64,000 bases of DNA. Origin: Micromonospora inositola. GTDB lineage: Bacteria; Actinomycetota; Actinomycetes; Mycobacteriales; Micromonosporaceae. This document shows, piece after piece, positions 27,954 to 52,388 of this stretch. A program made the translations under genes and the position numbers. The notes under the pieces are model-generated. The model saw only the letters and a program-made list of their open reading frames with translations, ran no database searches and was not told the DNA's origin. The stretch is from contig NZ_LT607754.1 in assembly GCF_900090285.1 (NCBI RefSeq), positions 4,800,001-4,864,000 on the forward strand, given 5' to 3'. Every line of letters starts with the position of its first letter. Position 1 is the stretch's first letter.

Positions 27954-29804
27954 GTGCATCAGAGAGCGAGGGTCACCGCGGCTGACATCGCCCGCCTCGC
28001 CGGCGTGGGGCGGGCGGCGGTCAGCAACTGGCGCAAGCGGTACGACGACTTCCCCGTACCGGTGGGTGGGACTGCTGCGTCCCCTCAGTTCGACCTCGAA
28101 GAGGTCGAGCAGTGGCTCGCTGGTCAGGGCAAGGCGCCCGCGGTCGCGGACGAGGACCGGCTCTGGCGCAATCTGCTGGCGGCAGCCGGCGACCCCGCCG
28201 AGGCGCTCGCCGCAGCCGGTGAGCACCTACTCGGCCGACGAGCTCTGCCGCGCGGTTTCCCGCGGCCGGGACTCGACGACCTCGCGAAGGTTCATGGGCC
28301 GGTGGCGACGTTCGACGAGTTGTGGGGTCGCTACGCCGCCCTACCCGCGCAACGTTCCGTGGTCACCCCCGACGATCTGGCCGACCTGATGGCCACGGTG
28401 GCGGGTGTCGCCGGAGGGGCCGTCTTCGATCCGGCCTGTGGTGCCGGTGGCATGCTGCGTGCCGCCGCCCGGGCCGGTGCCGCACACCTGTACGGGCAGG
28501 ACGACGAACCGACCCTGACCCGCCTCGCCGACCTGTGGCTCGCCCTCAACGGCAGGACCGGCGAGATCTGCACCGGTGACTCCTTACGCGCAGACGCCTT
28601 CCCCGACCTCGCCGCGGACGCCGTCCTGTCGAACCTGCCGTTCGGCCAGACCAACTGGGGACACGAGGAGCTGGGCAACGCACCGTGGGAGTTCGGGCCG
28701 CCGCCGCGCACCGAACCGGAACTGGCCTGGGCACAGCACGCGATCGCCCACCTGAGACCGGGCGGGCGCGCCGTGCTGCTCATGCCGCCGTCAGTGGCGA
28801 CGAGACGTGCGGGGCGCCGTATCCGCGCCAACATGTTGCGCCGAGGTGCCCTGCGCGCGGTGATCGCACTGCCGCCCGGCGCCGCACCACCGCACGCGGT
28901 GCCCTTGCACCTGTGGATCCTGCAGAAGGCGAACAGGGGGGCAGCGGAGGTGTTGCTGCTGGACACCACCGACTGCGATCTCGACGCGGCCTATCGGAGC
29001 ATCGCTGACATCGTCACGGCGTTCCTTAGCTCCGAAGACCGTTCGGAATCCGTCGAAGCGCACACGGTCCCCGTGCTCGACCTGCTCGACGAGGAGGTCG
29101 ACCTGTCACCCGGGCGTCGCCACCTCGACGATGCCGACCTCGCCGACATCGGATCGCGACTGGCCGATGCCAACCGGCGTCTGACGGATTCCGCCGCACG
29201 GATGCCCGGCCTGCTGTCCGACCTGGTGGACGGCCCGGCCGAGGCCGGTGTCTCCCCGTTCACCGTCGGCGACCTGCTCCGCAGCAGATCGCTACAGATC
29301 CTCGGACCCGTCCGTGGTGGTGAGGGGCAGCAGGCTGAGGGACTGACCCTCACCGTGCAGGACCTGATGGTCGGCCGGCCCGCCTCGGGAACGGCCGACG
29401 ATCGACTCACCCCGCGGATCGCCCTGCAGCCGGGGGACGTGGTGGTGTCCGTCAGCGAACGACGACTCGCCGCCCGGGTCAACACCGAGTCGGGTCCGCT
29501 GCTCGGCAGACACCTCTGGCTGCTACGTCCGGACCCGCAGGCCCTCGACTCCTGGTTCCTCGCCGGCCACCTGCTCACGACGGTTAACCAGAGACTGGCC
29601 GGAAGCCTTTTGGGCACGTCGCGTTTCGATGTGCGCCGGATACAGCTGCCGAGGGCGGCGATCGGCGAGCAGCGGCGACAGGGCGAGGTCTTCCGCCGTC
29701 TGAACGAGTTGACCGAGACGATCCGTGAGGCCGCGGCGCTGGGCGCCGACATCACGCGGCTCACGGCGGACGGTCTGGCCTCGGGCAGGTTGCAGCCGAC
29801 CTGA
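27954..29804 (+). CDS. HTH-containing N6-adenine DNA methyltransferase with recognition domain
   Basis: A 616-residue HsdM-like protein. Residues 1-60 form an HTH of the excisionase/phage-regulator type (AADIARLAGVGRAAVSNWRK, then VGGTAASPQFDLEEVEQWL). The SAM-binding motif is FDPACGAGGMLRAAARAG near residue 158. The catalytic motif is SNLPFGQTNWG near 225, a variant of NPPF. The C-terminal 200 residues, with a helix near the end (RLNELTETIREAAALGADIT), look like a fused target-recognition domain. No HsdR gene is adjacent. In DISARM, DrmMI is an N6 methyltransferase, and this gene could fill that role in the island. GTG 27954 suits the leaderless promoter. Confidence 0.85.
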   Translation: MHQRARVTAADIARLAGVGRAAVSNWRKRYDDFPVPVGGTAASPQFDLEEVEQWLAGQGKAPAVADEDRLWRNLLAAAGDPAEALAAAGEHLLGRRALPRGFPRPGLDDLAKVHGPVATFDELWGRYAALPAQRSVVTPDDLADLMATVAGVAGGAVFDPACGAGGMLRAAARAGAAHLYGQDDEPTLTRLADLWLALNGRTGEICTGDSLRADAFPDLAADAVLSNLPFGQTNWGHEELGNAPWEFGPPPRTEPELAWAQHAIAHLRPGGRAVLLMPPSVATRRAGRRIRANMLRRGALRAVIALPPGAAPPHAVPLHLWILQKANRGAAEVLLLDTTDCDLDAAYRSIADIVTAFLSSEDRSESVEAHTVPVLDLLDEEVDLSPGRRHLDDADLADIGSRLADANRRLTDSAARMPGLLSDLVDGPAEAGVSPFTVGDLLRSRSLQILGPVRGGEGQQAEGLTLTVQDLMVGRPASGTADDRLTPRIALQPGDVVVSVSERRLAARVNTESGPLLGRHLWLLRPDPQALDSWFLAGHLLTTVNQRLAGSLLGTSRFDVRRIQLPRAAIGEQRRQGEVFRRLNELTETIREAAALGADITRLTADGLASGRLQPT

Positions 29805-29855
29805 GAGGTGTGCCACCGAACCTCGTCCTCGCGGCGTCTCCGTTGCGAGGACGGG

Positions 29856-31334
29856 TCAGCCGCGTGCGCCACGCGCGGGTGGCACGTAGCGGCGTACGGG
29901 TGCACGCACGAGCATCAACGCGTCGACGGTGGCTATGACCTGTTCGTCGTCGACGTGTGCCGCATCGCGCAGGTCCGCGAGCAGCCCCGTCAGGATCGCT
30001 TCGGCCCCAGCCCTGTCGCCCGCGCCCGCCTGCATGATCGCCAGCTCGCGTGTGGCGGTCGCCCGTTCGGAACGCGTCGACGCCTGCCCGCCGAGATCTT
30101 CTGCGACGGTGGCGTACAGGTCGGCGGCCGTCGTGACGTCACCGGCGCGGGCGTGCAGGCGGGCCAGCGTCAGACGTAGGGAGACGACCGCGGGGTGGTC
30201 CTCAGGCAGCCGGCGGGTCATGACGGTGAGCGCGTCGTTGCAGGCGCGTAGGGCGTCGCCGGTCTCACCGGCCTCGACGAGCAGGTTCGCGAGATCACGG
30301 CGGACGTCCATGAGGGCGTCTTCGGGTGCGTGGGGGTCGTCGAGGACGGTGCGCAGCAGATCGACCGCTCGGCCGGGTCGGCCCTGCTCGGCGTGCTCGG
30401 CGGCGGAGGCGCGTATCCGTCGCAACGCCGCCGGGGTCCACTCGGGGTGTCCGGTCTGACCGCGGCGGGAGGCCCCGCCGGTCAGGCCGGTTGTGGTCTC
30501 GACGTATCCCTCGGGTGTCGTGGCCGTCACGAAGCCGGGCAGTGGTGACGGACGGCGCAGCAGGGGTGTCAGGGGCGCGAGGACGTCGGTGGCGTCCTTG
30601 GGTCGGTCTTGAGGGCGGTTGTGGGTGAGCAAGGCGGCCAGCTCCCACAGGTCGTCGTCGGCGGGTGTCTGCTCGAGCAGCTCCTCGAGGATGCGTCCGA
30701 CGGCGTAGAGGTCGGTGCGGGACGACGCGATGCCCAGGTCACACTCGGGTGCCCGATAGCGCCAGTCGCCGGTCACCACTCCGGGTGGGGTCAGGTGGGT
30801 CGAGCTGCTGTCGGTGACGATGGCCAACCCGAAGTCCACGACCTTCACGGTGCCGTCGGCGCACAGCAGCACGTTGTCCGGCTTCAGGTCGCGGTGTACG
30901 AGCGACAACTCGTGCGCGCGGGCCAGCACGGCACAGATCTGCGCGATGACGTATACCGTCCAGTCTCGGGGGACCGGCTGCACCTCGTCGATCAGATTGC
31001 GTAGCGTCGCACCCTCCACGTACTCCATCACGAGGAACGGTCGGCCGTCGTCCTCTCCGGTGTCGAACACCGCAGGCGTTCCGGGGTGCCGCATCCTGGC
31101 CAGCAGCCTCGCCTCGCGGCGGAAGCGGCGCACGAGTTCGGTGCGCTGGTCGTCGTCGGCCAGGTCTGCACGCATCAGTTTGACCGCGACCTCGCGGTCG
31201 AGGGACAGGTCGTAGGCCCGGTAGAGGTCGCCCATGCCGCCCCGCAGAGGGGGGCCCGACAACTCGTAGCGCTGCCCGATCGTCTGCGGGCTCGTCGACG
31301 TTGTCCTCGCTGCACCGGATGTCGTGACGCTCAT
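29856..31334 (-). CDS. Ser/Thr protein kinase with C-terminal TPR repeats
   Basis: A 492-residue cytosolic kinase without a membrane helix. The Gly-rich loop is LRGGMGDLYRA, the catalytic Lys52 is in REVAVKLMRAD, the catalytic loop HRDLKPDN is at 147-154 and DFG at 167-169. From about residue 315 the protein is helical with TPR-like repeats (RPGRAVDLLRTVLDDPHAPE, ALRACNDALTVMTRRLPEDH). ATG 31334 overlaps the stop of the kinase-helicase fusion as ATGA, so both are made together. All catalytic residues are kept, so an active kinase is likely. PglW in BREX type 2 shows that kinases can be part of defence systems, but its architecture differs. Confidence 0.88.
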   Translation of the reverse strand: MSVTTSGAARTTSTSPQTIGQRYELSGPPLRGGMGDLYRAYDLSLDREVAVKLMRADLADDDQRTELVRRFRREARLLARMRHPGTPAVFDTGEDDGRPFLVMEYVEGATLRNLIDEVQPVPRDWTVYVIAQICAVLARAHELSLVHRDLKPDNVLLCADGTVKVVDFGLAIVTDSSSTHLTPPGVVTGDWRYRAPECDLGIASSRTDLYAVGRILEELLEQTPADDDLWELAALLTHNRPQDRPKDATDVLAPLTPLLRRPSPLPGFVTATTPEGYVETTTGLTGGASRRGQTGHPEWTPAALRRIRASAAEHAEQGRPGRAVDLLRTVLDDPHAPEDALMDVRRDLANLLVEAGETGDALRACNDALTVMTRRLPEDHPAVVSLRLTLARLHARAGDVTTAADLYATVAEDLGGQASTRSERATATRELAIMQAGAGDRAGAEAILTGLLADLRDAAHVDDEQVIATVDALMLVRAPVRRYVPPARGARG

Positions 31335-34300
31335 GCGCCGGTGACCTGACGGTGGGTCAGGAACGGGCTCGGCGTGGCGTGCCACGAGATCACCAGGTCG
31401 TCCCGGGCGCGGGTCGCGGCCACGAACAGCAGGGAGCGGTAGCGCTGCCGTTCCCGCTGGTAGCGGGTGGGGTCCGACTCCCGGAAGCCGTTGATGCGCT
31501 GGTGCGGGACCAGCCCTTCACGGACCCCGGCGATGATCATCCGGCGATACTCCAGACCTTTGAACCGGTGCATGGTGCCCAGGTGCACTCCGCCGGTTCG
31601 AACGGGACCGTCCGAGCCGACCTCGACGACGTCGACGCCGTCGGCGCTCAGGCGGGCCGCCAGATCGGCGGCCAGATCGTGGGTGGGTACGCAGATGGCG
31701 ACGGAGCCGTCGGACTCGTCGCCCCAGGCCTTGAGCTGCCGCCGAATCAGGTCCATCTCCTGCGGCCAGTCGGCGGCTCGGCGCAGAGCCGGGTGTCCGC
31801 CGCTGAGCAGGGAGCGGTAGCCGTCGAGTGTGTCGGTCGCGCCGTTCATGTCGTCGTACCGTTCGCCGCTCATCAGCTCCAGAGCGGTGGCGAGGATCTG
31901 GCGGGTCGTGCGGTAGTTGAGGGTGAGCCGGTGTGAGCGGCCGCGGATGTCGATGCCCAACCGGGACAGACTGACCCGGTTGTCGTAGATGCGTTGGTGG
32001 GTGTCGCCGACGACGAACAAGTCGTCGGGTCCGGCCGGTGCCATGCACCGCAGCAGACGCCAGTGCGCCGTGCTGAGGTCCTGGGCCTCGTCGACGACGA
32101 TATGGCGGTAGCGGGCGGCCGTGCCGGGCCGTCGCGTGCGTGCCTGCTCGGCGCGGGCGGCGTGGACGGCGATCTGCGCATGCGTCCAGACGCCTTGTTC
32201 GGCGGTCCACTCCTCGAAGCGTCGGCACAGCTCCCAGATCCTGGCCCGGTCCGGCCGGCTCAGCGGGCGTCCGCGTCCCGGCCGGCGTGCGGTGGCGTAC
32301 TCATCGCCACTGTCGAGCATCTGCCCGAGCACGACCTGGGTCCACTCGGCGGACAGGAACTCCGGCGTCCAGTCGGAATCCTCCCGGCCGAGGAAAGCCC
32401 GCCAGTAGTCGGTGATGCGATGGTCGTCGACGAGGGTGCGGCCGGCGTCGTCCGGCGACTGGGTCGCGATCCTCCTCGCGAGCCGGTCGATGTTGATCAC
32501 GTCGACGTGCTGCAGCGCCTCGACGCCGGCCAGGGATTCGAGGCGGCTGCGGAGATCGACGGCGAGGTTTCGGCTGAAGGTGGTCAGCAGGATCCGACCG
32601 TCGCCCGGCTTGAGCCCGGCGGCCAGGTGTGCGACCCGGTGCAGGGCCACGATCGTCTTGCCGGTGCCGGGCCCGCCACTGACGCGGGTCGGTCCGCTGG
32701 TCGCCCGGTCGACGAGCCTGCGCTGGGTCGGGTGCAGGAACACCTGCCACGACTCGAACGACTCCGACAGGACGGCCTGCAATGCCTTGTCGTCGGAGGT
32801 CACCTGGGTGGCGGGGCGCACCAGCGCGGCGGCGAGGTCGTCGGGGTCGACCTGCTCGGTGACGCGCACGGGTTCGGTGATCAGCCGTCGCACGTCCTCG
32901 ACGTGCATGCCGTCGTAGAGCGAGAGCAGCACGTCCGCGGTCAGTTGCGGTGCGCCCTCGACGAGCTCCAACAGTTCGTCCTCGGTGCGCAGGGAGCGGA
33001 TCCGTGGCAGCAGTGGTTCGGCGACGCCGAGGTCCAGCAGCACGGTGTCGGCGTGGTCGTCGAACAGTGGGGGCGCCTCGGGCGGCAGGACGTCGACGAG
33101 CACGGTGTCGGGAACGGGTTCGAGGTCGACCACCTCGAGGGCGCCGGTGACCCGGTTGACCCGGTAGGCGTAACGGTCCAGCTCCTCGTAGACCTCGCCG
33201 CGGTGTTTGACGTCGACCAGCAGATACTCGCGGTCGGCGATGTGCAGCAGGATCGCGCGCAGGTCGGCGTTGACCCGGGCCGACCACAACCGGTCGCCGC
33301 CCTTGAGCTGTTTGAGCCGCAGTCCGGGGTTCTCGGGGTTGGAACGGAACTTGTGCTGGAACTCGTAGACGGCGCCGACGTCGGCCCGGGAGAGTTTGAG
33401 GATCTCCTTCTCTGCGCTCTGCAGCACGCGCAGTCGTCCCCCTGTGGTCATGGGCTGCTCCTTCGACGGCGTGGGCGGACCGTGGTGCACGGTCGTGCGA
33501 GGTGCTCGCACGGACGTGCCGGTGATGACGAGTTCGGTGGGTCCCTCCGGCCACGGGTCGGTCTCGTCGGTGACGGCGACGGACCGAAGCGACTCGGGAA
33601 GCGGTTCGGCGGGCGTATGGTCCTGCAGTCGGCGACGTACGGCGGCGAACCCGCCGGGGTGGGCCTCGACGATGCGGGAGAACTCGGCGATGAGGTCGGC
33701 GACGCCGGGGCGGGCGCCGGGATGGTGCGCCAGCATGGCGGTCAGCAGGGGGTCGAGGTCGCGGGGCACCCCGGTCAGGTCGGGGCTGTGGGCGGGGTCG
33801 GTGATCCAGCCGGTGAGCACGAGGGGGGTGGCCTGCGGGTAGGGGTGGCGCCGGGTGCTCGCGTACAGCAGCGTGGCGCCGAGGGCGTAGACGTCGACCG
33901 CCTCGGTCAGCTCGGTCTCGCCGACCGCCTGTTCAGGGGGCATGTAGGCGACGGTGCCGACCGCGTGACCGAGCTGCGTCAGACGGTCGTCGCGCTCACG
34001 CAGGACCGCCAGGCCGAGGTCGATGATTCGGGGTGAGTCGGGACCCAGCATGACATTGCTGGGTTTGAGGTCCCGGTGCAGCAGTCCGGCGCCGTGGATG
34101 GTCTCCAGACCCTCGGCGAGCATCGCGCCGAGGGCGGCGGTGGCCGCGCCGTCGAGCACGCCGTTGTCCGCGACGTACCGACGCAGTGTCGAGCCGGGCA
34201 CGTACTCCACCGCCAGCCACGGGTTGTCCCGGTTCAGTTCGCAACCGCGGTAGTGCGCGACCCGTAGACCCTGGGCGCGGCGCAGGTGCGCGATCTCGGC

Positions 34301-34489
34301 GCGGAAGCGGCGCAGGACGGTGTCGTCGTCGAGCAGGTGGGACTGGATGACCTTGACGGCGACCAGCTCCGCGGTGCGTGATCGACCGAGGTAGACCTTC
34401 CCCATGCCGCCCGCGCCCAACTCGGCGAGGATCTCGTATCGCCGGTTACGGCCGATCCAGCGCGGGTCCCGGCTCGTCAGTGCTCGCAC
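31331..34489 (-). CDS. Protein kinase - RelE-like - UvrD helicase fusion
   Basis: A 1052-residue three-part protein. Residues 17-285 form a Ser/Thr kinase (GAGGMGKVYLGR, VAVKV, HRDLKPSN at 138-145, DLG in place of DFG, APE-like MPPEQ). Residues 350-450 resemble a RelE/ParE toxin fold (LQSAEKEILKLSRADVGAVY, GGDRLWSARVNADLRAILLH). Residues 575-1045 form a UvrD/Rep-type SF1 helicase (Walker A SGGPGTGKTIVALHR, Walker B IVVDEAQDLSTAHW, later GTMHRFKGLEYRRMI and VAATRARDDLVIS). The RelE-UvrD pairing exists as a stand-alone protein; the added kinase is unusual. GTG 34489 overlaps the frame at 34477. DLG may lower but need not abolish kinase activity. Confidence 0.87.
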   Translation of the reverse strand: MRALTSRDPRWIGRNRRYEILAELGAGGMGKVYLGRSRTAELVAVKVIQSHLLDDDTVLRRFRAEIAHLRRAQGLRVAHYRGCELNRDNPWLAVEYVPGSTLRRYVADNGVLDGAATAALGAMLAEGLETIHGAGLLHRDLKPSNVMLGPDSPRIIDLGLAVLRERDDRLTQLGHAVGTVAYMPPEQAVGETELTEAVDVYALGATLLYASTRRHPYPQATPLVLTGWITDPAHSPDLTGVPRDLDPLLTAMLAHHPGARPGVADLIAEFSRIVEAHPGGFAAVRRRLQDHTPAEPLPESLRSVAVTDETDPWPEGPTELVITGTSVRAPRTTVHHGPPTPSKEQPMTTGGRLRVLQSAEKEILKLSRADVGAVYEFQHKFRSNPENPGLRLKQLKGGDRLWSARVNADLRAILLHIADREYLLVDVKHRGEVYEELDRYAYRVNRVTGALEVVDLEPVPDTVLVDVLPPEAPPLFDDHADTVLLDLGVAEPLLPRIRSLRTEDELLELVEGAPQLTADVLLSLYDGMHVEDVRRLITEPVRVTEQVDPDDLAAALVRPATQVTSDDKALQAVLSESFESWQVFLHPTQRRLVDRATSGPTRVSGGPGTGKTIVALHRVAHLAAGLKPGDGRILLTTFSRNLAVDLRSRLESLAGVEALQHVDVINIDRLARRIATQSPDDAGRTLVDDHRITDYWRAFLGREDSDWTPEFLSAEWTQVVLGQMLDSGDEYATARRPGRGRPLSRPDRARIWELCRRFEEWTAEQGVWTHAQIAVHAARAEQARTRRPGTAARYRHIVVDEAQDLSTAHWRLLRCMAPAGPDDLFVVGDTHQRIYDNRVSLSRLGIDIRGRSHRLTLNYRTTRQILATALELMSGERYDDMNGATDTLDGYRSLLSGGHPALRRAADWPQEMDLIRRQLKAWGDESDGSVAICVPTHDLAADLAARLSADGVDVVEVGSDGPVRTGGVHLGTMHRFKGLEYRRMIIAGVREGLVPHQRINGFRESDPTRYQRERQRYRSLLFVAATRARDDLVISWHATPSPFLTHRQVTGA

Positions 34490-37085: not shown

Positions 37086-37092
37086 ATCGCCG

Positions 37093-40275: not shown

Positions 40276-40277
40276 GC

Positions 40278-42059: not shown

Positions 42060-42083
42060 CACGGTGAGAGGAAGGGGGAGGCT

Positions 42084-42740: not shown

Positions 42741-42744
42741 GACC

Positions 42745-45700
42745 ATGGCACCGGAGCCGCTCTGGGAGGGACCCGACAGCGCCGTCGCCCGTCGGGTGAC
42801 GGAGCTGTCGGATCAGTACCTTCGGGCCTATGCGGCCCATCCCGGACTGATCGAGGAACACGCCAACATCGAGCGGTCGATCACCCAGGGCGGCTACGGC
42901 CGGCGTCAGCTCTACGAGCTGATCCAGAACGGTGCCGACGAGCTGCAACGCGAACCGGGCGGCGGGATCCACGTCGTGCTGACCCCCGACGCGTTGTACT
43001 GCGCGAACCGGGGGACGGCGATCACGCAGGACGGCGCGGAGACCATCCTGGCCTCACATCTGTCCCGCAAGCGCGGGACCGAGATCGGACGTTTCGGGCT
43101 CGGCTTCAAGTCCGTGCTGTCGATCAGCGACAGCCCGGACTTCTTCAGCCGCAGTGGATCGTTCGGGTGGGATCGGCGCCACGCCGAGGCGACGATCCGC
43201 ACCCACACGGGCACGACGGGGCCGACGCCGGTGCTGCGGGTGGCGCGGGTGCTGGACGCGGACGCGGCCCGCGCCGGCGACCCGGTGCTCGACGAGCTCA
43301 TGTGCTGGGCGACGACGGTGATCCGGCTGCCTCTGCTCGAGGGGCACCTGGACCGGCTCGCCCAGGACCTGCGCGACTTCCCCAGTGACTTCGTGATCTT
43401 CTCCCCCCACATCGGCCGCTTGGATCTCGACGACCGGACCGGGCTCGTGCCACAGCGGAAGACCGTCACCGTCAGCGGAGACGGCACCGACCGGGTCGTC
43501 GTCGAGCAGTCCGGCGGCGCGGAGCGCACCGTTACGTGGAAGGTCTTCGAACGGATCCACCGCCCCAGTGAGCAGGCGCGCCGCGACGCCGGGGAGTTCC
43601 ACGACCGTGACGAGATCCCGTTGTCCTGGGCCGTGCCGGTCTCCGGCGGCGGCCAGGGGACCGGTGCGTTCTGGGCCTTCTTCCCGACGACGTATGAGAC
43701 GACGCTCAGCGGCATCCTGAACGCCCCGTGGAAGACCAACGAGGACAGGCAGAACCTGCTCAAGGACAACCTGTTCAACGATGAGCTGATGACCGCCGCG
43801 GCGGAGCTGATCGTGGACTCGTTGCCGGAGTTGAGCACCGACGAGGACCCGGCCCGCCACCTGCTGTTCATCACCGCCCGCGGCCGTGAGGCCCGCAACT
43901 GGGCCGACAAGGAATTGAGCGCCGCGATCTACCGGCTCGCCGCGCGGCGTCCGAGCCTGCCGGATCAAACCGGTCGTCTGCGCACCCCCACCGAGGTCCG
44001 GCTGCATCCCGCCCGGCTCGATCCAGAGTGGCTTTCGCGGTGGCGCGGCGTGCCCGGACGTCCCGACGACTGGTGTCATCACTCCGTCGAGGAGACGGTG
44101 CGGCGATCACGGGCGGAACAGATCCTGGCCGGAGCCGGTAGAGGGCCGGCCACGCTTCGGCACTGGTTGGAGGCCGTGGCGCTGCCCGGCTCCCCGCCGG
44201 GGACGGCGGCGGCGCTGCGCATCGTCGCGCAGATGAGCGACCGCAGGCATCCCCTGCTCGACGACGGTCACATCGCGCGGATCGTGCTCGTCGCCGACGG
44301 CCGGGTCCTGACACTGTCGGACCAGGTCTTCCGCCGCACACCGGGTGAGCCCGAAGCCGACGGGCTCACCTACATCGACCGGCGCCTCGACGAGGACCCG
44401 GAGCTCGACGAGGTTCTGACCGATCTCGGGATCTACGAGGCCGATGCCGCCGGGCGGCTGCTGTCCCTGCTGCAGAGCGACCTGTCGGATGCCGACGACG
44501 AGTCGTGGGAGACGTTCTGGGCCCTGACCCGACGCCTCGTCCCGTCCGTCGCCGCCGAGATGATCGACGAGCAGGGGTTCACCGCACGGGTGCGGGTCCG
44601 CGTCGGCTCGGGTGCGTTCATGGGGCTGCGTGAGTGCCTGATGCCCGGTCGCGTGGTGCTGGCCGGCTCCTCGGTCGCCGTCGACGTCGACTTCCACCGC
44701 GAGGATGTGGCGCTGCTGGGGCTGCTGGATGTGAGCGACGTGCCGAGGGAGTCCGACGATCCGGGCCGGGACGGGTGGCTCGACGAGTACCGACGAAAGA
44801 TGATCTTGGCCTTCTACGCGTCACTGCCGCCGTCGGCGAGCAGGCCGGTCGAGCGCGGTATCAAGGTCGCAGGCGTCGCACCTGCAGGCCCCCTCGGATT
44901 GCTGACCACCCTCACCCCGTCGGAGACGGCGCGGTTCCTCCGACATGTGCCACCCGCCGGCGTCGTCACGACGTGGCACGTCACCGCGACCACCCGCGTC
45001 GACCGGCGGCTCGACGTGCCGTCGCCGCTGGTGTGGGCGGCGCGTCGCTACGGACATCTGCAGACCGCGTGGGGTCTCCTGCCCGTCGACGACAGTGTGG
45101 GTCCCGGGCTGGCTCTCCCGACGGGAGTGCTGCCGGCGGCCGACATCGGCGCCGACCTGGCGACGGCTCTGGGACTGCCGCAACACACCGACGAGATCGG
45201 CGAGGCCCGGTGGCGGCGGATGGTCGCTCATGCCGAGGAGCACCTTCAGGTCGAGCAGGTGGGTGAACTCTACGGGCTGGCCTGCTCGTATCTGCCCGTC
45301 GCGCCGCCCCGGATCCGTTGCCTGGTCGGCGCCGACCCGGGGTGGGCCGCGCCCGGCGAGGTCACCATGGCCGCCGACGCCGGGCAACGGCGGCGGCTGC
45401 GCGACCACGACGTCCCGGTGCTGCCGGTACCGCCGGAGGCGGTCGACGGGTTGAGGGCCGCGTGGGGTCTGTCAGTCCTCGACGACGTGCTCAGCAACGA
45501 GGTGAGGGCGGTTCCCGTGCGCGAGCCGGTGCCGGTGGAGGACCTGTTCCCGCGGCTGCGTTTCCTCCCGGGCCGGCCCCTGCACGGCGTGCGGGTCGTC
45601 GCGTGCAGTGAGTTGGAGGAGCTGGTCAGCGGGCCGAACGGGCGGCGGGCGCGGCCGGCGTCGGTGCTGAGGTCCGACGACGTCGTCTACAGCCTGGAAC

Positions 45701-47391
45701 CCTATGACGACGCGACGTTGCTGCGTCGGCTTCGGGAGCGGTTCGGTCTGCAGTTGACCGATCAGCAGGTCGAGCAGATCTTGGCCCACAACGAGCAGGT
45801 GCGACGGGACGCGCGTCTGGTCGCCGTCCGTGACCAGCCCGACGACGCTGCTCGGCTGCTCGTCCTGCTCGGCGCCGACGTTCTGCGCACCCGCATCCCG
45901 CAGCCGGTCCTGGAGGCCGTGGCCGCCGCCGAGGGGCCGCTCGACGATCGCACGGTGGCCGAGCTCGCCCTGGATGTGTTCGGTTCCACGGTGCTGCGGG
46001 AGTACCGCAGCGACCTGGACCGTCTGGGTCTCGACGTGCCGGAGCAGTGGGCCGGCGGCCATCGGGCCCGTCGACTCGTGACCGACCTGGGCTTCCCCGT
46101 GACGTTCGCCGGGGAGCGGCAGCCTTCCTTGGAGGCCAGCGTCGTGGTCGACGGCCCGGCCGCGTTCCCGCCGCTGCACGAGTACCAGGAGATCATGGTG
46201 CGGCGGGTCCGTTCGGTCGCCGAGTCGCGGCCGCCGCTGCGCGGCATGCTGTGTCTGCCCACCGGTGCCGGCAAGACCCGCACCGCGGTCCAGGCTCTCA
46301 TCGAGTCCATGCGCGACGAGGCGTTGCCGCGTTTGCGGCCGATCCTGTGGATCGCGCAGTCGGAGGAGCTGTGCGAACAGGCGGTGCACAGCTGGCAGAG
46401 CGCGTGGCGCAGCCTCGGCGGCGCCGCGCGGCTGACCATCAGCAGGCTCTGGTCCGGCAACACGGCCGATCCGGTCACGGACGGCTTCCATCTGGTGGTC
46501 GCCACCGACGCGAAACTGGCGTTGATCATCGACTCGCCGGACTACGAGTGGCTGCGGGACGCCCAGTGCGTGATCATCGACGAGGCGCACACGTCCCTGA
46601 GCCCGCGTTACACGTCGGTGCTGGCGTCGCTGGGTATCACGCCGCATCGCACGAGGTGCCCGTTGATCGGGCTGACCGCGACCCCGTTCATCGGCACCAA
46701 TGCGCCGGAGACCGAGCGTCTGACCCGCCGCTACAACCGCAACCGGCTCGACTTCGACGTCGACGGGCGGGAGGTGCTGGCGCCGCGGCCGTACGAGAGC
46801 CTGCAGGAGATGGGCGTCCTGGCACGCATACGTCATCGTGAGCTGGACGGGGCGACCATCCAGCTGTCGGAGAGCGAACGCGCCGAAGCCGCGGTTCATC
46901 CGTGGCTGCCGACCAGCGCGGAGAACCGTCTGGCGGCCGATCAGGAGCGCACCGCGATGCTGGTCAAGGAGATCACGGCACTGCCGCAGCAGTGGCCGAT
47001 CCTGGTGTTCGCGACCTCCGTCGAGCACGCCCACGTCCTCGCCGCCCTGCTCAATCGGCGGGGGGTGAGGTCGGCGGCCGTCACCGGGTCGACCGAGCAT
47101 GGTCTGCGCCGGCAGACGATCCGTCGCTTCCGTGACGGGGAGATCAGGGTGCTGACGAACTACAGCGTGCTGACCCAGGGCTTCGACGCACCGGCGACGA
47201 GGGCGATCGTGGTGGCCCGGCCCACCTTCAGCCCGAACGTGTATCAGCAGATGATCGGGCGAGGTCTGCGCGGTCCCAGGAACCGCGGCAAGGAGGAGTG
47301 CCTGGTGCTGGACGTGGCCGACAACATCACCCACTTCGGTGCGGAACTCGCGTTCCGCGACTTCGAGTATCTGTGGCGTTCTCCGGGGTGA
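42745..47391 (+). CDS. HSP90-type ATPase fused to SF2 helicase, first copy
   Basis: A 1548-residue protein. Residues 45-250 form a GHKL/sacsin-type ATPase: Glu58, Asn62 and Asp65 in LYELIQNGADEL, then ALYCANRG (83-90) and GRFGLGFKSVL (115-125). About 800 residues without a recognised domain follow. The C-terminal 400 residues form an SF2 helicase: motif I LPTGAGKTRTAVQAL near 1172, DEAH near 1277 in CVIIDEAHTSLSP, LIGLTATPF, LVFATSVEHAHVLAALL, and motif VI YQQMIGRGLRGPRN. It is the last gene of the UvrD-DrmA operon, four bases after the winged-helix gene. The design suggests an ATP-gated switch controlling a translocase (inference). Confidence 0.87.
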   Translation: MAPEPLWEGPDSAVARRVTELSDQYLRAYAAHPGLIEEHANIERSITQGGYGRRQLYELIQNGADELQREPGGGIHVVLTPDALYCANRGTAITQDGAETILASHLSRKRGTEIGRFGLGFKSVLSISDSPDFFSRSGSFGWDRRHAEATIRTHTGTTGPTPVLRVARVLDADAARAGDPVLDELMCWATTVIRLPLLEGHLDRLAQDLRDFPSDFVIFSPHIGRLDLDDRTGLVPQRKTVTVSGDGTDRVVVEQSGGAERTVTWKVFERIHRPSEQARRDAGEFHDRDEIPLSWAVPVSGGGQGTGAFWAFFPTTYETTLSGILNAPWKTNEDRQNLLKDNLFNDELMTAAAELIVDSLPELSTDEDPARHLLFITARGREARNWADKELSAAIYRLAARRPSLPDQTGRLRTPTEVRLHPARLDPEWLSRWRGVPGRPDDWCHHSVEETVRRSRAEQILAGAGRGPATLRHWLEAVALPGSPPGTAAALRIVAQMSDRRHPLLDDGHIARIVLVADGRVLTLSDQVFRRTPGEPEADGLTYIDRRLDEDPELDEVLTDLGIYEADAAGRLLSLLQSDLSDADDESWETFWALTRRLVPSVAAEMIDEQGFTARVRVRVGSGAFMGLRECLMPGRVVLAGSSVAVDVDFHREDVALLGLLDVSDVPRESDDPGRDGWLDEYRRKMILAFYASLPPSASRPVERGIKVAGVAPAGPLGLLTTLTPSETARFLRHVPPAGVVTTWHVTATTRVDRRLDVPSPLVWAARRYGHLQTAWGLLPVDDSVGPGLALPTGVLPAADIGADLATALGLPQHTDEIGEARWRRMVAHAEEHLQVEQVGELYGLACSYLPVAPPRIRCLVGADPGWAAPGEVTMAADAGQRRRLRDHDVPVLPVPPEAVDGLRAAWGLSVLDDVLSNEVRAVPVREPVPVEDLFPRLRFLPGRPLHGVRVVACSELEELVSGPNGRRARPASVLRSDDVVYSLEPYDDATLLRRLRERFGLQLTDQQVEQILAHNEQVRRDARLVAVRDQPDDAARLLVLLGADVLRTRIPQPVLEAVAAAEGPLDDRTVAELALDVFGSTVLREYRSDLDRLGLDVPEQWAGGHRARRLVTDLGFPVTFAGERQPSLEASVVVDGPAAFPPLHEYQEIMVRRVRSVAESRPPLRGMLCLPTGAGKTRTAVQALIESMRDEALPRLRPILWIAQSEELCEQAVHSWQSAWRSLGGAARLTISRLWSGNTADPVTDGFHLVVATDAKLALIIDSPDYEWLRDAQCVIIDEAHTSLSPRYTSVLASLGITPHRTRCPLIGLTATPFIGTNAPETERLTRRYNRNRLDFDVDGREVLAPRPYESLQEMGVLARIRHRELDGATIQLSESERAEAAVHPWLPTSAENRLAADQERTAMLVKEITALPQQWPILVFATSVEHAHVLAALLNRRGVRSAAVTGSTEHGLRRQTIRRFRDGEIRVLTNYSVLTQGFDAPATRAIVVARPTFSPNVYQQMIGRGLRGPRNRGKEECLVLDVADNITHFGAELAFRDFEYLWRSPG

Positions 47392-47729
47392 GGCGGTGTC
47401 TTCGCTCGATCGATCCGAGGTGGAGACCGCTCGTCGGTAACGCCGTGGGGGAGTGGCGCGCTTCTCCATGATGTACGGAGGATCGCGATCGTCGTGGCGG
47501 CCATCACCGGACCGATTTCGTTGACAAAACTCTACCCGTTTTCCGATGTTGACAATGTTAACAGCGGTGCTACGGTGAGCGGGCGTAGGGCACAAGCGCT
47601 CGGCCGGTCGGCCGGGCCGGGACATCCGGACGGCGGAGCCGTCAAGATCGAAGTCCGAGCGCGCATCCGGAGAATCGATGTCGCGTCGTGCGCCGCGTGT
47701 TCGTTCTGTTCGGCTCGAGGCGGGATCTG
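47392..47729. other. Intergenic region between the two giant helicase genes
   Basis: No gene. It holds the promoter at 47547-47576 and a leader of about 145 bases to ATG 47730. A GTG at 47688 in the same frame is an alternative start. Confidence 0.6.
47547..47576 (+). promoter_or_regulatory. Promoter with two TGTNAACA-type elements
   Basis: TTGACA (47549-47554), 16 bases, TACGGT (47571-47576). TGTTGACA (47547-47554, TGTCAACA on the other strand) overlaps the -35 and TGTTAACA (47556-47563) follows one base later, so a bound protein would probably repress. A second TTGACA lies at 47521-47526. Confidence 0.55.
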
Positions 47730-50700
47730 ATGAGTTCTTCCACCCCATCGTCGTACGCGTCCGTCCGTGAGACCGTCGAAGCGCTCTCCGCCGTCGCGCT
47801 CCGGCATTACGAGATCGACGCCGGGATGGTCCAGGAGCACGCCAACGGCGAGCGACGTATCACCCAGGGCGGATACGGCGACCGTCAGGTCTACGAGCTG
47901 GTGCAGAACGGCGCCGACGAGATGCGAGGCCTGCCGGACGGTGAGATTCGGGTGATCCTCACCGACGACTACCTCTACTGCGCCAACGCCGGTAACCCGA
48001 TGACCCCGGCAGGGGCGGACACGATCCTGCGCATGGGCGTCTCCCGCAAGCGAGGCGGGCAGATCGGCCGCTTCGGCGTGGGTGTCAAGTCCGTGCTCAG
48101 CGTCAGCGACACCCCCCAGTTCTTCAGCACCGGCGGCTCCTTCGGCTTCGACCGGGCCTGGGCCGAACAGACCATCCGAGCCGTGGTACCTGGCGCCGTC
48201 GACATCCCCATCCTGCGGATGGGGAAAGTCCTGGACACGGCCGGGGAGGCCGCGTCCGACCCGATCCTCGCCGAGCTGCTCGGGTGGGCCGCCACCGTCG
48301 TGCGGCTGCCGCTGCTACCCGGGAAGGCCGCCCGGCTCAGCCTCGACCTGCGCGGCTTTCCCGCCGAGTTCCAACTGTTCTCACCCCACGTCGGGTCGTT
48401 GATCCTCGAGGACCGCTCCGGGCCCCGCCCGCCGCTGGTCCGGGAGCTGTTCGTGCGCAACGACGGCAACCGCTTCACCCTCCAGAGCAGTGCCACCACG
48501 GGTAGGGACGAGACCAGCCGCTGGCGGGTCTTCACCCGCACGTTCCACCCCTCTGCGACCGCGCAGCAGGGTGCCGGTGAACTGCACGACCGCCCCCGGA
48601 TCGACGTCTCCTGGGCGGTGCCGGAGGACAAGGGCCGCGGTGAGCGGGGCACCTTCTGGGCGTTCTTCCCCACCAACTACGCCACCACCCTGCGCGGCCT
48701 GCTCAACGCACCCTGGAAGACCAGCGAGGACCGGCAGAACCTCTACGACAACAACCCGTTCAACGAGGAACTCATCGAGCAGGCGGCGCTGCTCATCGTC
48801 GAGTCCTTGCCGGAACTGGTCGACATCGCCGATCCCGGCTCCTACCTGACGCTGCTGCCGGGCCGGGGAAGGGAGGCACCGCAGTGGGCCGACGACCGGC
48901 TGACCAAGGAGGTCTGGAAGACCACGGCGGTGCGTCCGTCGCTGCCTGACCAGCTCGGTGTGCTGCGCATTCCCGACGAGCTGTCCATGCCGCCGGAGAA
49001 CATCCCCGCCCCCCTGATGCAGCTGTGGGTCGGCTACAGCGGGCGCCCGCACGACTGGACCCACCCGTCGATCGAGCAGCGCGAACGGCGTGCCCGCGCG
49101 CGTCTGATCTTCGAGACCGCCGGCTTGAGCGAGGCGCCGATCGTGCGGTGGCTGCAGTCGCTGGTGCACGACGGCACCGCCGAAGCGTCCATCTGCGCGA
49201 TCCGCATCCTCGCCGGGCTGCGCCGCGAGAACTCCGAGCACGCCGACGCCGCGCGCCGGGCCCGGATCGTGTTGACCGAGTCCCACGGCATGGTCTCCGT
49301 CGACCACCCCGGCCTGTACCAGCGCAGCGGCCTCGACGAACTCGCCGACGATCTGATCTACGTCGACGCGACGGTCACCGACGAGATCGGTCTGCGCAGC
49401 GACCTCAACGAACTGGGGGTCCGGGAGGCGACGCCGATGGGCAAGCTCAAGGCGGTCCTGGACCGCGGTGTCGACGGCTACGGCGACAAGGACTGGCAGG
49501 CCCTGTGGGGGCTCGTGGGCCGGGTGACACCCCACGACGCCGCCGACGCCATCCGCAAGGCCCTCCCCGATCCCATGCGCGCGATCCGGGTGCGCACCAT
49601 GGCGGGCCGGTTCCGGCCGCTGGCCGAGTGCCTGCTGCCCGGGCGGGTCATCCCCGCCGACGGCAGCCGCGACCAGGACCTGGTCGTCGACCTGCGCGTC
49701 CACGGCGCCGACCGGCCGGCTCTGACGGCACTGGGCATGTCCGACGTGCCGGAGATGAGCGTCGACCCACGCGAGGACGACTGGTTCGAGGAGTACCGCG
49801 AGTTCGCGTTGAAGCGTCTGAACGACAGCCTGGACAAGCACGTCCGGCTGCGCAAACTGTCCGCTCTCGAGGTCGACGGGACCACCCCGCCCGGCCCGCT
49901 CGGCGTCCTTACCGAACTCAGCGACGAAGGCAAGGCACTGTTCGTCAAACACCTGCCCGCCGGGCGACTGGTGCGCGACTGGACCGCCCGGGCGCACAGC
50001 AGCACGCTGCACGTCCCGTCGCCGCTGGTGTGGATGGTCCGCCAGCACGGCAAGATCGACAGTAGTCAGGGGCTGCTGCCCGTGCGCATGACGGTCAACC
50101 CGGGCCTGCAGGAGTACGACGACGTGCTGCCCGTGGCGAGCGTCGACCGCGATGTCGCCGACGTCCTCAACCTGCCGTCTACCGTCGACCGGATTCAGGA
50201 ACCGCTGTGGCGGTACGTGGTGCAGACGGTAGAAAAGTCACAGGACGACGTGGTCCCCGGGAAGGCCTACGCGCTCGTCCTGCGCTCGGGCATCGAATGG
50301 CCCGGAGGCGAGACCCGGTGCCGGATCGGGGACACCTGGGGCACGCGACCCGACGACCAGATCTGCGTCACAGCCGACCGGGTCGAGTACGACACCCTCG
50401 TTATGGAGCGGGTCCCCGCACTGCTGGCACCTACCGTGACCGACGTCGAGAACATGGTCGAGACGTGGGGGATGCTGCGATACGCCGACGCCGTCAGCAT
50501 GGAGATCCGCACCGCCGAGGAGACCGAACCGGTCGCCGTCGTCACCGAGTTCCCGCACTTGGCCGTCCTGCGCAGCCGGCTCGCCAACGGCTGGTCCTAC
50601 GTGGTGTGCGGCGAACTCGACGAGGTGAAGCGCACCCCCGCCGGCATGCGGACGACCCCGCTGGAGTCGGCGAACCGGGACCGCGTGGTCTACGTGCGCC

Positions 50701-52388
50701 ACCCCGCCGACGAACGGCGCATCCTGCAGGCCGTCTCGAAGGAACTCGACCTGCGCCTATCGCCCGCCGAGGTGCAGAAGATCCTCGACATGCGGGAGGA
50801 GGCCAAGAACCAGGACATCCTCAAGCAGGTCCGCGCCACGGACAGCGACATCGAGAAGATCCTGCTGCTCGTCGGCGCCGAACGGCTGCGGCGGGGACTC
50901 CCTGAGGGCCTGCTCGCCTGGGAACAGGCGCAGAGGGGCGCAGTGGTCGAGGACCTGCGCATCGCCGAGCTCGCGTTGCACGCCCACGGGGACGCCATCC
51001 TGCGTCACCACCGCGGCGACCTGAAACTGATCGACGAGAGCCTGAAACTGCCGTTCACCGGGGACACCAAGTCCCGGCAGAAGGTCGCCGACCTCGGATT
51101 CGACGACCGGTACGCGGGCACCAAGGAGGAGACCCCGCCGCCGCTGGAGACCGCCGAGGGACCCACGCCGCACTACCCGCTGCACGACTACCAGGAAGTG
51201 CTCGCCTCCCGAATGCTGCAGCTGCTGATGCAGAAGCAACCGATGCGGGGCATGCTCAGCCTCCCCACCGGTGCTGGCAAGACCCGTGTCGCAGCCGAGG
51301 CCGTCATCCGCTACCTCAAGACCTTCGGCGCCGATGGCCCGGGCCGGCCGATCCTGTGGATCGCCCAGTCCACCGAGCTGTGCGAGCAGGCCGTACAGAG
51401 CTGGAAGTACGTCTGGGAGAAGAGCGGCCTCGGCGGCACCCGCCTCAGCATCAGCCGCTTCTGGAACAGCCGCGACGCGACCCAGATCACCGGCAACCCG
51501 CACCTGGTCGTGGCCACCGACGACCAGCTGACCGCCCGGCTGCACCAGCCTGCCTACCAGTGGTTGCGCGAGCCCCTGCTGGTGATCGTGGACGAGGCCC
51601 ACGGATCGACCACCAAGGGCTACACCGCGCTGCTCGAACAGATGGGCATCACCCACCACCGCCTGACACGACCGCTGATCGGACTCACCGCCACCCCGTT
51701 CCGCGGCAAGAGCACCGACGAGACGAAACGACTGATCGTTCGCTACGGCAGCAACCGACTCGACGACGGAGCGCTGGGCGAGAACCCCTACGCCCGGCTT
51801 CAGGACATGGGCATCCTCGCCCGCACCGACCACGCCGTCCTGGAAGGCGGCGAGCTCGAACTCACGTCCCAGGAACTGCACATGATGTCCATGGGCCGAG
51901 GCACCCTCCCGCCGAACGCCGAACGGCGTCTCGCCGAAGACCACTCCCGGAACCGGACCCTGATCAATGCTCTACTCGGCCTCGACCGGGAATGGCCGGT
52001 GCTCGTCTTCGCCACCTCCGTCAACCACGCGCGGTTCCTGGCGGCCGTCCTCAACGACCAGGGCGTGCACTCCGCCTCCGTCGACTCCGAGACACCCACG
52101 AAGCGGCGGCAACAGATCATCGAACAGTTCGGCAAGGGCAGGCTCAGAGTCCTCACCAACTACGGCGTCCTCCACCAAGGCTTCGACGCGCCGGCGACCC
52201 GAGTCGTCGTCGTGGCACGGCCCACCTATAGCCCGAACGTGTACCAGCAGATGATCGGTCGTGGCCTACGTGGGCCCCGGAACAACGGCACCGAGCGCTG
52301 CCTGATCCTCAACGTGAGAGACAACGTGATCAACCATCAGCAACAGCTCGCCTTCACCGACTTCGAGCAGATGTGGCGGGAGGCCTGA
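47730..52388 (+). CDS. HSP90-type ATPase fused to SF2 helicase, second copy
   Basis: About 1552 residues with the same order as the upstream paralogue. The GHKL ATPase has Glu56, Asn60 and Asp63 in VYELVQNGADEM, LYCANAG (82-88) and GRFGVGVKSVLSV. A long middle section follows, then the SF2 helicase: LPTGAGKTRVAAEAV near 1180, DEAH near 1287 in LLVIVDEAHGSTTKG, LIGLTATPFRGKS, and YQQMIGRGLRGPRN. ATG 47730 is preferred because the distance to the shared ITQGGYG motif then matches the paralogue. The two proteins align along their whole length but are clearly diverged, so they may form a heteromer or have different targets. It is transcribed from its own promoter. Confidence 0.87.
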   Translation: MSSSTPSSYASVRETVEALSAVALRHYEIDAGMVQEHANGERRITQGGYGDRQVYELVQNGADEMRGLPDGEIRVILTDDYLYCANAGNPMTPAGADTILRMGVSRKRGGQIGRFGVGVKSVLSVSDTPQFFSTGGSFGFDRAWAEQTIRAVVPGAVDIPILRMGKVLDTAGEAASDPILAELLGWAATVVRLPLLPGKAARLSLDLRGFPAEFQLFSPHVGSLILEDRSGPRPPLVRELFVRNDGNRFTLQSSATTGRDETSRWRVFTRTFHPSATAQQGAGELHDRPRIDVSWAVPEDKGRGERGTFWAFFPTNYATTLRGLLNAPWKTSEDRQNLYDNNPFNEELIEQAALLIVESLPELVDIADPGSYLTLLPGRGREAPQWADDRLTKEVWKTTAVRPSLPDQLGVLRIPDELSMPPENIPAPLMQLWVGYSGRPHDWTHPSIEQRERRARARLIFETAGLSEAPIVRWLQSLVHDGTAEASICAIRILAGLRRENSEHADAARRARIVLTESHGMVSVDHPGLYQRSGLDELADDLIYVDATVTDEIGLRSDLNELGVREATPMGKLKAVLDRGVDGYGDKDWQALWGLVGRVTPHDAADAIRKALPDPMRAIRVRTMAGRFRPLAECLLPGRVIPADGSRDQDLVVDLRVHGADRPALTALGMSDVPEMSVDPREDDWFEEYREFALKRLNDSLDKHVRLRKLSALEVDGTTPPGPLGVLTELSDEGKALFVKHLPAGRLVRDWTARAHSSTLHVPSPLVWMVRQHGKIDSSQGLLPVRMTVNPGLQEYDDVLPVASVDRDVADVLNLPSTVDRIQEPLWRYVVQTVEKSQDDVVPGKAYALVLRSGIEWPGGETRCRIGDTWGTRPDDQICVTADRVEYDTLVMERVPALLAPTVTDVENMVETWGMLRYADAVSMEIRTAEETEPVAVVTEFPHLAVLRSRLANGWSYVVCGELDEVKRTPAGMRTTPLESANRDRVVYVRHPADERRILQAVSKELDLRLSPAEVQKILDMREEAKNQDILKQVRATDSDIEKILLLVGAERLRRGLPEGLLAWEQAQRGAVVEDLRIAELALHAHGDAILRHHRGDLKLIDESLKLPFTGDTKSRQKVADLGFDDRYAGTKEETPPPLETAEGPTPHYPLHDYQEVLASRMLQLLMQKQPMRGMLSLPTGAGKTRVAAEAVIRYLKTFGADGPGRPILWIAQSTELCEQAVQSWKYVWEKSGLGGTRLSISRFWNSRDATQITGNPHLVVATDDQLTARLHQPAYQWLREPLLVIVDEAHGSTTKGYTALLEQMGITHHRLTRPLIGLTATPFRGKSTDETKRLIVRYGSNRLDDGALGENPYARLQDMGILARTDHAVLEGGELELTSQELHMMSMGRGTLPPNAERRLAEDHSRNRTLINALLGLDREWPVLVFATSVNHARFLAAVLNDQGVHSASVDSETPTKRRQQIIEQFGKGRLRVLTNYGVLHQGFDAPATRVVVVARPTYSPNVYQQMIGRGLRGPRNNGTERCLILNVRDNVINHQQQLAFTDFEQMWREA

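Follow-up and report, generated by a model that had tools for sequence, protein, structure and literature searches.

The locus described here is probably part of a DISARM branch that has no name of its own, in which the conserved unit consists of a GHKL-SF2 helicase, UvrD, DrmA and DrmB. It lies in a window of 64,000 nucleotides from Micromonospora inositola (contig NZ_LT607754.1), for which an earlier sequence-only reading had named nine ORFs and proposed that all belong to one DISARM-derived system. Scans with Pfam, PADLOC and NCBIfam recovered all nine (Table 1), and the ATPase and helicase motifs of the window proteins are intact. A NaeI-like restriction endonuclease, a C5 methyltransferase and a Vsr gene occupy 24744-27506, beyond the range covered by that reading. 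In an empty-site comparison of 21 genomes, the left-flank gene of the island was found in 6 (its own genome included, and one of the same genus at 73%) and the right-flank gene in its own genome only (1/21); the island borders were not located.

Table 1. Genes of the locus and its neighbouring restriction-modification unit, in window coordinates
Feature	Position	Strand	Evidence
P1, HTH + N6 DNA methylase-like	27930..29804	+	PF02384 3.7e-32; mad1-like HTH; motif IV NLPF
P2, Ser/Thr kinase with TPR	29856..31385	-	Pkinase + TPR by Pfam
P3, Ser/Thr kinase + RelE-like + UvrD fusion, ArmD-like	31331..34489	-	PF00069, PF00580
P4, UvrD-family SF1 helicase, core	35097..37085	+	PF00580 4.5e-20
DrmA helicase, core, short form	37093..40275	+	NF038325 1006.8 bits (cut-off 950); 7s9v E 6e-179
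DrmB, core, DUF1998/MZB	40173..42059	+	NF038324 464.7 bits (cut-off 240); PF09369
P7, 218 aa, no family assigned	42084..42740	+	5′ neighbour of GHKL-helicase
P8, second GHKL(sacsin)-SF2 helicase	42745..47391	+	NF047352; nearest L133 (55%)
P9, core GHKL(sacsin)-SF2 helicase	47688..52388	+	NF047352; nearest L123 (65%)
C5 DNA methyltransferase of NaeI-type RM unit	25909..27177	-	PF00145 3e-60
Vsr endonuclease-like gene	27069..27506	+	PF03852 5.4e-17
NaeI-like restriction endonuclease, neighbouring RM system	24744..25835	-	PF09126 2e-124

The GHKL-helicase, UvrD, DrmA and DrmB core

The proposal that the GHKL-helicase belongs with DrmA and DrmB, for which co-occurrence across genomes had been suggested as a check, is borne out by co-occurrence, gene order and correlated distances. 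In a 397-genome sample of the order, DrmA is present in 76 genomes and in all 21 that carry the GHKL-helicase, which is thus found in 21 of the 76. Of 59 DrmA loci with a GHKL-helicase, 57 keep GHKL-UvrD (or NERD-UvrD)-DrmA-DrmB in this order on a single strand. The window is one of the two that do not, with the order UvrD-DrmA-DrmB-P7-P8-P9; given this atypical order and a gap of ~300 bp after P8, P9 is possibly transcribed apart. Distances among GHKL-helicases and among DrmA proteins correlate (r=0.91), which is no proof of interaction since common vertical descent gives the same pattern. DrmA of GHKL loci forms a separate clade in the DrmA tree, built without L161 and L181, whose DrmA was read as fragments only; one GHKL-positive locus with the helicase on the opposite strand (L169) groups with DrmC/D loci. 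Because the survey that started from DrmA used 13 DrmA proteins of GHKL loci as queries and retained the best 80 matches, the 40 GHKL loci among these 80 are no estimate of prevalence. Genes near DrmA were labelled by matches of at least 55 bits within 14 kb, and named loci extend for no more than 10 kb to either side; L105 and L183 are one locus, and G067, G262 and G317 are identical to L148, L149 and L154, respectively, and enter the counts a single time.

The start of P4 is uncertain and may lie near 35250, many homologues aligning only from residues 63-66. Its AlphaFold model (pLDDT 83) matches UvrD/Rep/GajB folds in the PDB and has a predicted beta-rich C-terminal domain. A nuclease hidden in P4 was considered and rejected, the model being that of a UvrD helicase and the 50 PDB matches listed for the whole model all being helicases. 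GajB models of PADLOC match P4 and P3 as UvrD helicases only, and no GajA name appears among the PADLOC matches listed for the ten proteins scanned.

The two sacsin/GHKL-SF2 helicases score 59.5 and 65.2 bits with NF047352 (cut-off 50), and in P9 the predicted structure places a GHKL+S5 fold at residues 28-465. The middle of P9 (about residues 466-1147 of the model) was considered as a possible site of a nuclease. Both helicases named in the sequence-only reading are present; one per locus is the norm, and P8 comes from a different lineage. P9 and the window DrmA share L123 as their nearest locus, and a P7 homologue also stands 5′ of the GHKL-helicase in Streptomyces luteolifulvus (L133). By its sequence relationships, P7-P8 is a second GHKL unit from another lineage than P9; a simple tandem duplication was rejected, as P8 and P9 are each nearer to genes of other genera than to each other. 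P7 has no match in Pfam, PADLOC, NCBIfam, the PDB or the viral contigs searched, and the winged helix once assigned to it finds no support in any search. None of the 213 plasmid or 485 phage records matching P9 covers 80% of it. Arthrobacter plasmid NZ_KJ410765.1 matches P9 residues 37-981 at 31%.

Differences from DISARM and other GHKL systems

The window shares with class 1 and 2 DISARM its DrmA and DrmB homologues, which pass the curated cut-offs, and GHKL loci often have a C5 methyltransferase nearby. Those classes carry DrmC, DrmD or DrmE, and DrmMI or DrmMII, whereas at a threshold of E 1e-3 the window as a whole yields nothing for reference DrmC, DrmD (of L204 and L208) and DrmMI, and none of the three occurs in the 40 named GHKL loci. 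One DrmC reference (L204) also has no match in the genome that holds the window, in a search run without a positive control. Derivation from DISARM with DrmC and DrmD lacking, as read from the sequence alone, is supported, and of the outcomes named beforehand as refuting it, neither a failure of the homologues to co-occur nor a DrmC or DrmD gene was seen for the core. For DrmE the result is narrower: no such name occurs among the NCBIfam and PADLOC matches listed for P4, P8 and P9, a comparison of names only that for P4 took in the best 25 of 39 PADLOC matches. Unlike in DISARM class 1 and 2, UvrD and the GHKL-SF2 helicase are fixed partners in the GHKL branch, and DrmA falls in its separate clade, with no match in the window protein to residues 1-136 of Serratia DrmA. 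It would be very surprising if the locus were ordinary class 1 or 2 DISARM with DrmC, DrmD or DrmE overlooked: the DrmA and DrmB scores would fit, but the separate DrmA clade speaks against it, and a version with missed DrmC, DrmD or DrmMI was rejected on the searches of the window and the 40 loci. DrmC is described as often missing from DISARM and dispensable (PMC9142583).

Both methyltransferase genes, that of the NaeI unit and the N6 methylase-like one, stand beside the core operon, not inside it. A C5 methyltransferase recurs near 14 of the 40 named GHKL loci and is unmatched in the other 26, in the ~3 kb seen 5′ of the GHKL gene, so methylation-based self-recognition need not be general.

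The N-terminal GHKL part of P8 and P9 matches TmtA models of Tmn, but the best matches stop before about residue 445 and the rest differs. In restriction systems, MORC and paraMORC ATPases of the GHKL-S5 type are likewise combined with an SFII helicase; in the portions of PMC2292703 covered, which do not use the term YprA, the helicase is a separate gene, whereas in the window both parts form one protein of 1550 aa that is linked to DrmAB. The HTH, N6 methyltransferase and kinase resemble mad1, mad2 and mad6, but membership in MADS was rejected, the scores being far under curated cut-offs (NF047738, 23 of 720 bits; NF047741, 115 and 99 of 460). Open-access PubMed Central texts, seen in part and with most subscription papers outside their scope, hold no description of a GHKL-helicase with UvrD and DrmAB; the nearest are PMC12458937, PMC2292703, PMC9142583, PMC11090510, PMC10952713, PMC3710099 and PMC12904381. 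The branch can be called a putative variant of DISARM without description in the open-access texts covered.

The P1-P2-P3 accessory module

The idea that all genes form one system is not supported by comparison across loci. Among the 59 GHKL-positive loci, 2 have P1-like genes and 5 have RelE-UvrD genes at up to 14 kb from DrmA, while 55 have no P2/P3-type kinase in that range; genes of the P1-P2-P3 type adjoin the core as a set in two (the window and L123), and the same classes occur in ARMADA II loci, those of P1 and the TPR kinase also in G012. As judged from these homologous genes, the N6 methylase-like protein, the TPR kinase and the kinase-RelE-UvrD protein are add-ons, unequal in rank to the core. 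Of the fusion described for P3, Pfam supports the kinase and UvrD parts; the RelE-like domain is weakly supported, its best PDB match being 2khe ('Toxin-like protein', E 0.012), with no Pfam match. Some sources name homologues of the P3 fusion 'RelE endonuclease/helicase'.

Somewhat short of an even chance is the reading that GHKL-UvrD-DrmAB is one system and that P1-P2-P3, the NaeI unit and an SLFN helicase are independent neighbours in a defence island. The module is rare beside the GHKL core, relatives of P1, P2 and P3 recur in ARMADA loci, P2 and P3 run divergently from the core with P1 beyond them, and of the 31 genomes of the genus in which P1 has a match, 29 yield none to the GHKL-helicase. 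Against mere juxtaposition, L123 has the TPR kinase, N6 methyltransferase and RelE-UvrD genes co-directional and directly 3′ of DrmB; RelE-UvrD is immediately 3′ of DrmB in L154 (= G317; 22 bp), L124 and L161; L106 carries N6 methyltransferase and RelE-UvrD genes 3′ of DrmA-DrmB; and P7 and the P3 fusion are reported from equally long contigs in two Actinoplanes species.

P3 is a RelE-UvrD protein of the ArmD kind, as found in ARMADA type II, and in three Micromonospora loci (G359, G151 and G163) N6 methyltransferase and kinase genes of the same classes flank ArmD, in the order N6MT-kinase-ArmA-ArmB-ArmC-ArmD-TPR kinase. The C-terminal part of P3 is 61-63% identical to genes in the ArmD position beside the YprA gene in Micromonospora, and P2 is 34-36% identical to kinases 3′ of ArmD. 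These loci raise the possibility, which we consider unlikely, that P1-P2-P3 is a type II remnant that lost ArmA, ArmB and ArmC and fused the 5′ kinase to ArmD. In searches without a positive control, neither ArmA (BrxHII-like helicase) nor ArmC (fused YprA helicase) has a match in the genome; in the window, ArmA and the TsukM reference for ArmB (PglX-like methyltransferase) have none, and ArmC only a 62-residue match inside DrmA. The window differs from ARMADA in these absences, in its GHKL-helicase and in having, like DISARM, DrmA and DrmB as separate proteins in place of one YprA-type helicase. A remnant fits poorly with the differing order and strands of the genes and with the P3 fusion, which is kept in 5 of 96 database matches (59-93% identity, including Micromonospora and Actinoplanes) with its kinase and helicase motifs intact here; it is thus maintained, not decaying. 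Motif IV of P1 is NLPF, not NPPF, which puts methylation by P1 in doubt; NLPF is common to P1, L123 and L210, unlike the ARMADA-linked L273 (NPPF). The best relative of P1 in the sample (59%, G012) lies together with a TPR kinase gene in a third type of locus, DrmA and YprA both being absent from the 20 kb read.

Domains of the kinase and RelE-like types are characteristic of toxic effectors, and both occur here, the latter by a weak match, so activated kinases and a RelE-like RNase might halt host growth in abortive infection. This is quite improbable, given the 55 loci without such a kinase and a report that ARMADA with a RelE-UvrD ArmD is non-abortive (PMC12458937; the word 'kinase' is not used in its main text). 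That phosphorylation replaces the usual effector, as the sequence-only reading had it, is not directly supported.

A proposed exchangeable 5′ partner and mechanism

In 17 UvrD-DrmA loci without GHKL, UvrD is preceded on its 5′ side by an Hsp70-like gene in 9, by a ZorC-like gene after ZorAB in 1, by a RelA/SpoT gene in 1, and by an unread gene or one of another kind in 6. The ZorABC case is a single locus (L171) with a weak ZorC match (E 2.9e-4); its likeness to Zorya is one of operon position only, and no Zor genes were seen in the window. With nearly as much confidence as doubt, we tentatively read UvrD-DrmA-DrmB as a portable DNA-acting effector with one swappable activator slot, which may be filled, depending on lineage, by an Hsp90-fold ATPase-helicase, an Hsp70-like ATPase, a Zorya membrane motor or a RelA/SpoT protein, and which here may also be cross-wired to an ARMADA-type kinase module.

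As the best explanation of the observed fixed order, co-occurrence, correlated divergence, separate DrmA clade, intact motifs and predicted GHKL-S5 fold, we infer the following mechanism. DrmAB would load on 5′-overhang or single-stranded phage DNA, by analogy with reported Serratia DrmAB. The GHKL module, whose predicted fold is that of ATP-gated dimeric clamps such as GyrB, Hsp90 and MORC, may sense the state of DNA or of the complex and license or clamp both the SF2 helicase to which it is fused and UvrD-DrmAB. Acting jointly, the helicases would strip, unwind and stall phage DNA with no separate DrmC nuclease, and methylation by a linked methyltransferase may spare self DNA. The window core would have gained the second GHKL unit (P7-P8) and the ARMADA-like module (N6 methyltransferase-like protein, TPR kinase and kinase-RelE-UvrD), expected to act as regulators or backups of the core.

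Accounts of DISARM centre on a methyltransferase, a nuclease, and an SNF2 helicase or DrmE, with roles that are poorly understood. A coherent branch that lacks DrmC and DrmD while having UvrD and a predicted ATP-gated clamp fold lends itself to testing how DrmAB becomes active and what stops phage DNA. Our results suggest that parts pass between ARMADA and DISARM, kinases being accessories common to both, and that bacteria swap the parts that switch a DNA-attacking machine on. Should the 5′ gene prove to be an activator that can be exchanged, DISARM-type cores could be coupled to the sensing of protein state, membranes or alarmones, and comparing Hsp90-, Hsp70- and Zorya-type operons would make DISARM sensing directly testable.

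Genes of the window

The window sits within a single 6.7-Mb chromosome, and the genes listed by the sequence-only reading are confirmed as real (Table), with their kinase, helicase and GHKL module motifs intact. The exception is motif IV of the N6 methyltransferase-like P1, which reads NLPF instead of NPPF. This motif is common to L123, L210 and G012 from other genomes, and an NLPF-bearing P1 is perhaps a non-methylating DNA reader. A short stretch with its own open frame is 63% identical to P1 residues 9-104, the HTH end. An SLFN group 3 helicase-like gene (PF09848, 1.3e-87) adjoins the system, and an SMC/RecF-like ATPase (819 aa) beside an RNase H-domain protein makes a possible pair of further defence genes.

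Table. Positions of genes in the window and of side features in other sequences
Feature	Sequence	Position	Strand
SMC/RecF-like ATPase, RNase H-domain protein	window	18545-22200	
Stretch similar to P1 HTH end	window	23647-23934	
NaeI-type unit: REase, C5 MTase, Vsr (adjoins P1-P3 group)	window	24744-27506	
P1, HTH-N6 MTase	window	27930-29804	+
P2, TPR kinase	window	29856-31385	-
P3, kinase-RelE-UvrD	window	31331-34489	-
P4, UvrD	window	35097-37085	+
P5, DrmA	window	37093-40275	+
P6, DrmB	window	40173-42059	+
P7	window	42084-42740	+
P8, GHKL-SF2	window	42745-47391	+
P9, GHKL-SF2 (~300 bp 3′ of P8)	window	47688-52388	+
SLFN group 3 helicase-like gene	window	52576-54489	
Hypothetical protein similar to P9	NZ_KJ410765.1	8464-11268	
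Hsp70-like ATPase-UvrD-DrmA(-DrmB) cassette	L163	6118-14963	
Zor-like genes, UvrD-DrmA-DrmB	L171	3616-14872	
Sigma-70-domain gene	L106	7314-8510	
Sigma-70-domain gene	L207	6117-9938	

Conservation and ancestry of the GHKL core

Using the GHKL ATPase-SF2 helicase P9 as query against 397 genomes of the order, matches were found in 26, covering the GHKL part in 21 (divided between two contigs in one) and the SF2 helicase alone in 5. DrmA is present in all 21 GHKL genomes versus 76 of 397 overall (P 7e-17), and GHKL is found in 21 of these 76 DrmA-bearing genomes. The genes are adjacent, as GHKL-(UvrD)-DrmA-DrmB, in 19 of the 20 loci fetched around full-length P9 matches, while in the remaining locus (G067) DrmA lies 29 kb from GHKL. 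The association of DrmA and DrmB with the GHKL helicases that the sequence-only reading had proposed holds across genomes. A DrmA-led survey of named genomes, of which the best 80 of 590 confirmed stretches were used, is tilted towards GHKL loci because all 13 DrmA seeds came from such loci. Among these 80, GHKL occurs in 40, with UvrD 5′ of DrmA in 39 and DrmC, DrmD or DrmMI in none of the 40; the latter genes occur in 13 other loci, and 27 have neither these nor GHKL. With all loci pooled, the co-directional order GHKL-UvrD (or NERD-UvrD)-DrmA-DrmB is kept in 57 of 59 GHKL-positive loci, the exceptions being the window and L169. Hosts include Streptomyces, Rhodococcus, Mycolicibacterium, Nocardia, Actinomadura, Lentzea and Sinomonas, as well as a Dehalococcoidia MAG. 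On an Arthrobacter plasmid, a hypothetical protein aligns with P9 over residues 37-981 (31%), a span that takes in the GHKL and middle parts.

In a DrmA tree of 119 rows, built by a quick method with SH-aLRT support, all 47 GHKL+UvrD rows fall within one 49-row clade (support 100), whose other two members are L148 (the G067 locus) and L203 from a Tsukamurella plasmid. Separate clades hold 11 GHKL+NERD-UvrD rows (99) and nine Hsp70 rows together with L171 (10 rows, 100), and the 19 DrmC/DrmD/DrmMI rows lie inside a group of 24 rows with weaker support (88) that also takes in L169. By this tree, gene content largely tracks the ancestry of DrmA. GHKL and DrmA distances correlate at 0.914 (n=55), and at 0.927 within UvrD loci (n=45), which fits co-inheritance of the two genes; vertical descent would give the same. 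The core very probably represents a distinct, conserved branch of the DISARM family, and the full explanation of the locus, with its proposed mechanism, is likely.

The second GHKL protein of the window has a history of its own. L123 is the nearest relative for both P9 (65%) and DrmA (70%), P8 is nearest to L133 (55%), and a homologue of P7 lies directly 5′ in L133 too; P7-P8 therefore form a second unit rather than a duplicate of P9. P7 has its closest homologue in M. tulbaghiae, and distant ones (P0047-P0052) bear an HNH endonuclease domain (PF01844).

An ARMADA-like module beside the core

Three loci (G359, G151, G163) share a P1-like methyltransferase (51-54% to P1), ArmA-like SNF2, ArmB-like methyltransferase, YprA ArmC, RelE-UvrD ArmD (61-62% by tblastn) plus a TPR kinase (34-36% to P2); in two of the three, further genes separate ArmB from ArmC. 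A kinase resembling that of P3 (45-51%) lies 5′ of ArmA in each (in G151 as L219). P2 and P3 thus resemble the surroundings of ARMADA type II and its ArmD, the difference being that ArmA-C are missing here. The main text on ARMADA reports a four-gene system and does not contain the word ‘kinase’ (PMC12458937). Three Micromonospora ARMADA type II loci (L269/L270, L271/L272, L273/L274) have HTH-N6 methyltransferase and Ser/Thr kinases at their flanks. Judged by its matches, the affinity of P1 to these surroundings is less clear: the best are G012 (59%), which has a TPR kinase and neither DrmA nor YprA within 20 kb, and L123 (58%).

Across 29 other RelE-UvrD loci, YprA matches alongside in 16, a kinase in 16 (3′ of an ArmD-like gene next to YprA in 10 of them) and DrmB in 2, and in none of the 29 is a kinase fused to RelE-UvrD. 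The full-length P3 fusion was seen in 5 of 96 database matches, from Micromonospora, Actinoplanes and one further source, in a search scoring only the 7994 candidates that share most words.

Module genes also stand beside DISARM-type cores. L123 reads GHKL-UvrD-DrmA-DrmB-TPR kinase-N6 methyltransferase-RelE-UvrD on a single strand, and L106 DrmA-DrmB-(367 aa)-N6 methyltransferase-RelE-UvrD; RelE-UvrD immediately follows DrmB in L154, L124 and L161, and one small predicted ORF intervenes in G230. For Actinoplanes xinjiangensis and A. sichuanensis, a P7 homologue and the P3 fusion are listed on contigs of equal length (Q0Z83_001440 and Q0Z83_001570 in the latter), from which the hybrid is taken as probably recurring. 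A single DISARM-derived system of all these genes, as first proposed, is not borne out in that form; we lean slightly towards an ARMADA-like regulatory or back-up module that works with the core in this host.

The gene 5′ of UvrD as a putative activator slot

UvrD lies 5′ of DrmA without GHKL in 17 loci. Nine of these have an Hsp70-like gene 5′ of UvrD (seven Bacillota, one Gastranaerophilales, one Synergistaceae), called by Pfam in L163, L159, L174 and L165 and by BLAST to L163 in L164, L173, L166, L168 and L182. The L163 cassette and its relatives are mostly from Bacillota, and four of the nine have NERD-UvrD 3′ of DrmB. In L171, from an Acetatifactor MAG, genes like ZorA (6e-25), ZorB (8e-75) and, weakly, ZorC (3e-4) directly precede UvrD-DrmA-DrmB, an apparent Zorya-DISARM hybrid as judged from these matches. 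Elsewhere the slot holds a RelA/SpoT-domain protein (L203), a divergent pair (L181), a 1013-aa protein without family (L185) or an SNF2 helicase (L189); nothing adjoining UvrD matches the panel in L148, and the contig ends there in L161 and L202. In L106 and L207, both without 5′ UvrD, a sigma-70-domain protein lies directly 5′ of DrmA-DrmB, that of L106 also matching MzaA.

Zorya keeps a membrane sensor apart from cytosolic DNA effectors. Given this division and the varying 5′ gene, we tentatively read the position 5′ of UvrD as a slot for an activator, with UvrD-DrmAB as the effector that it would control.
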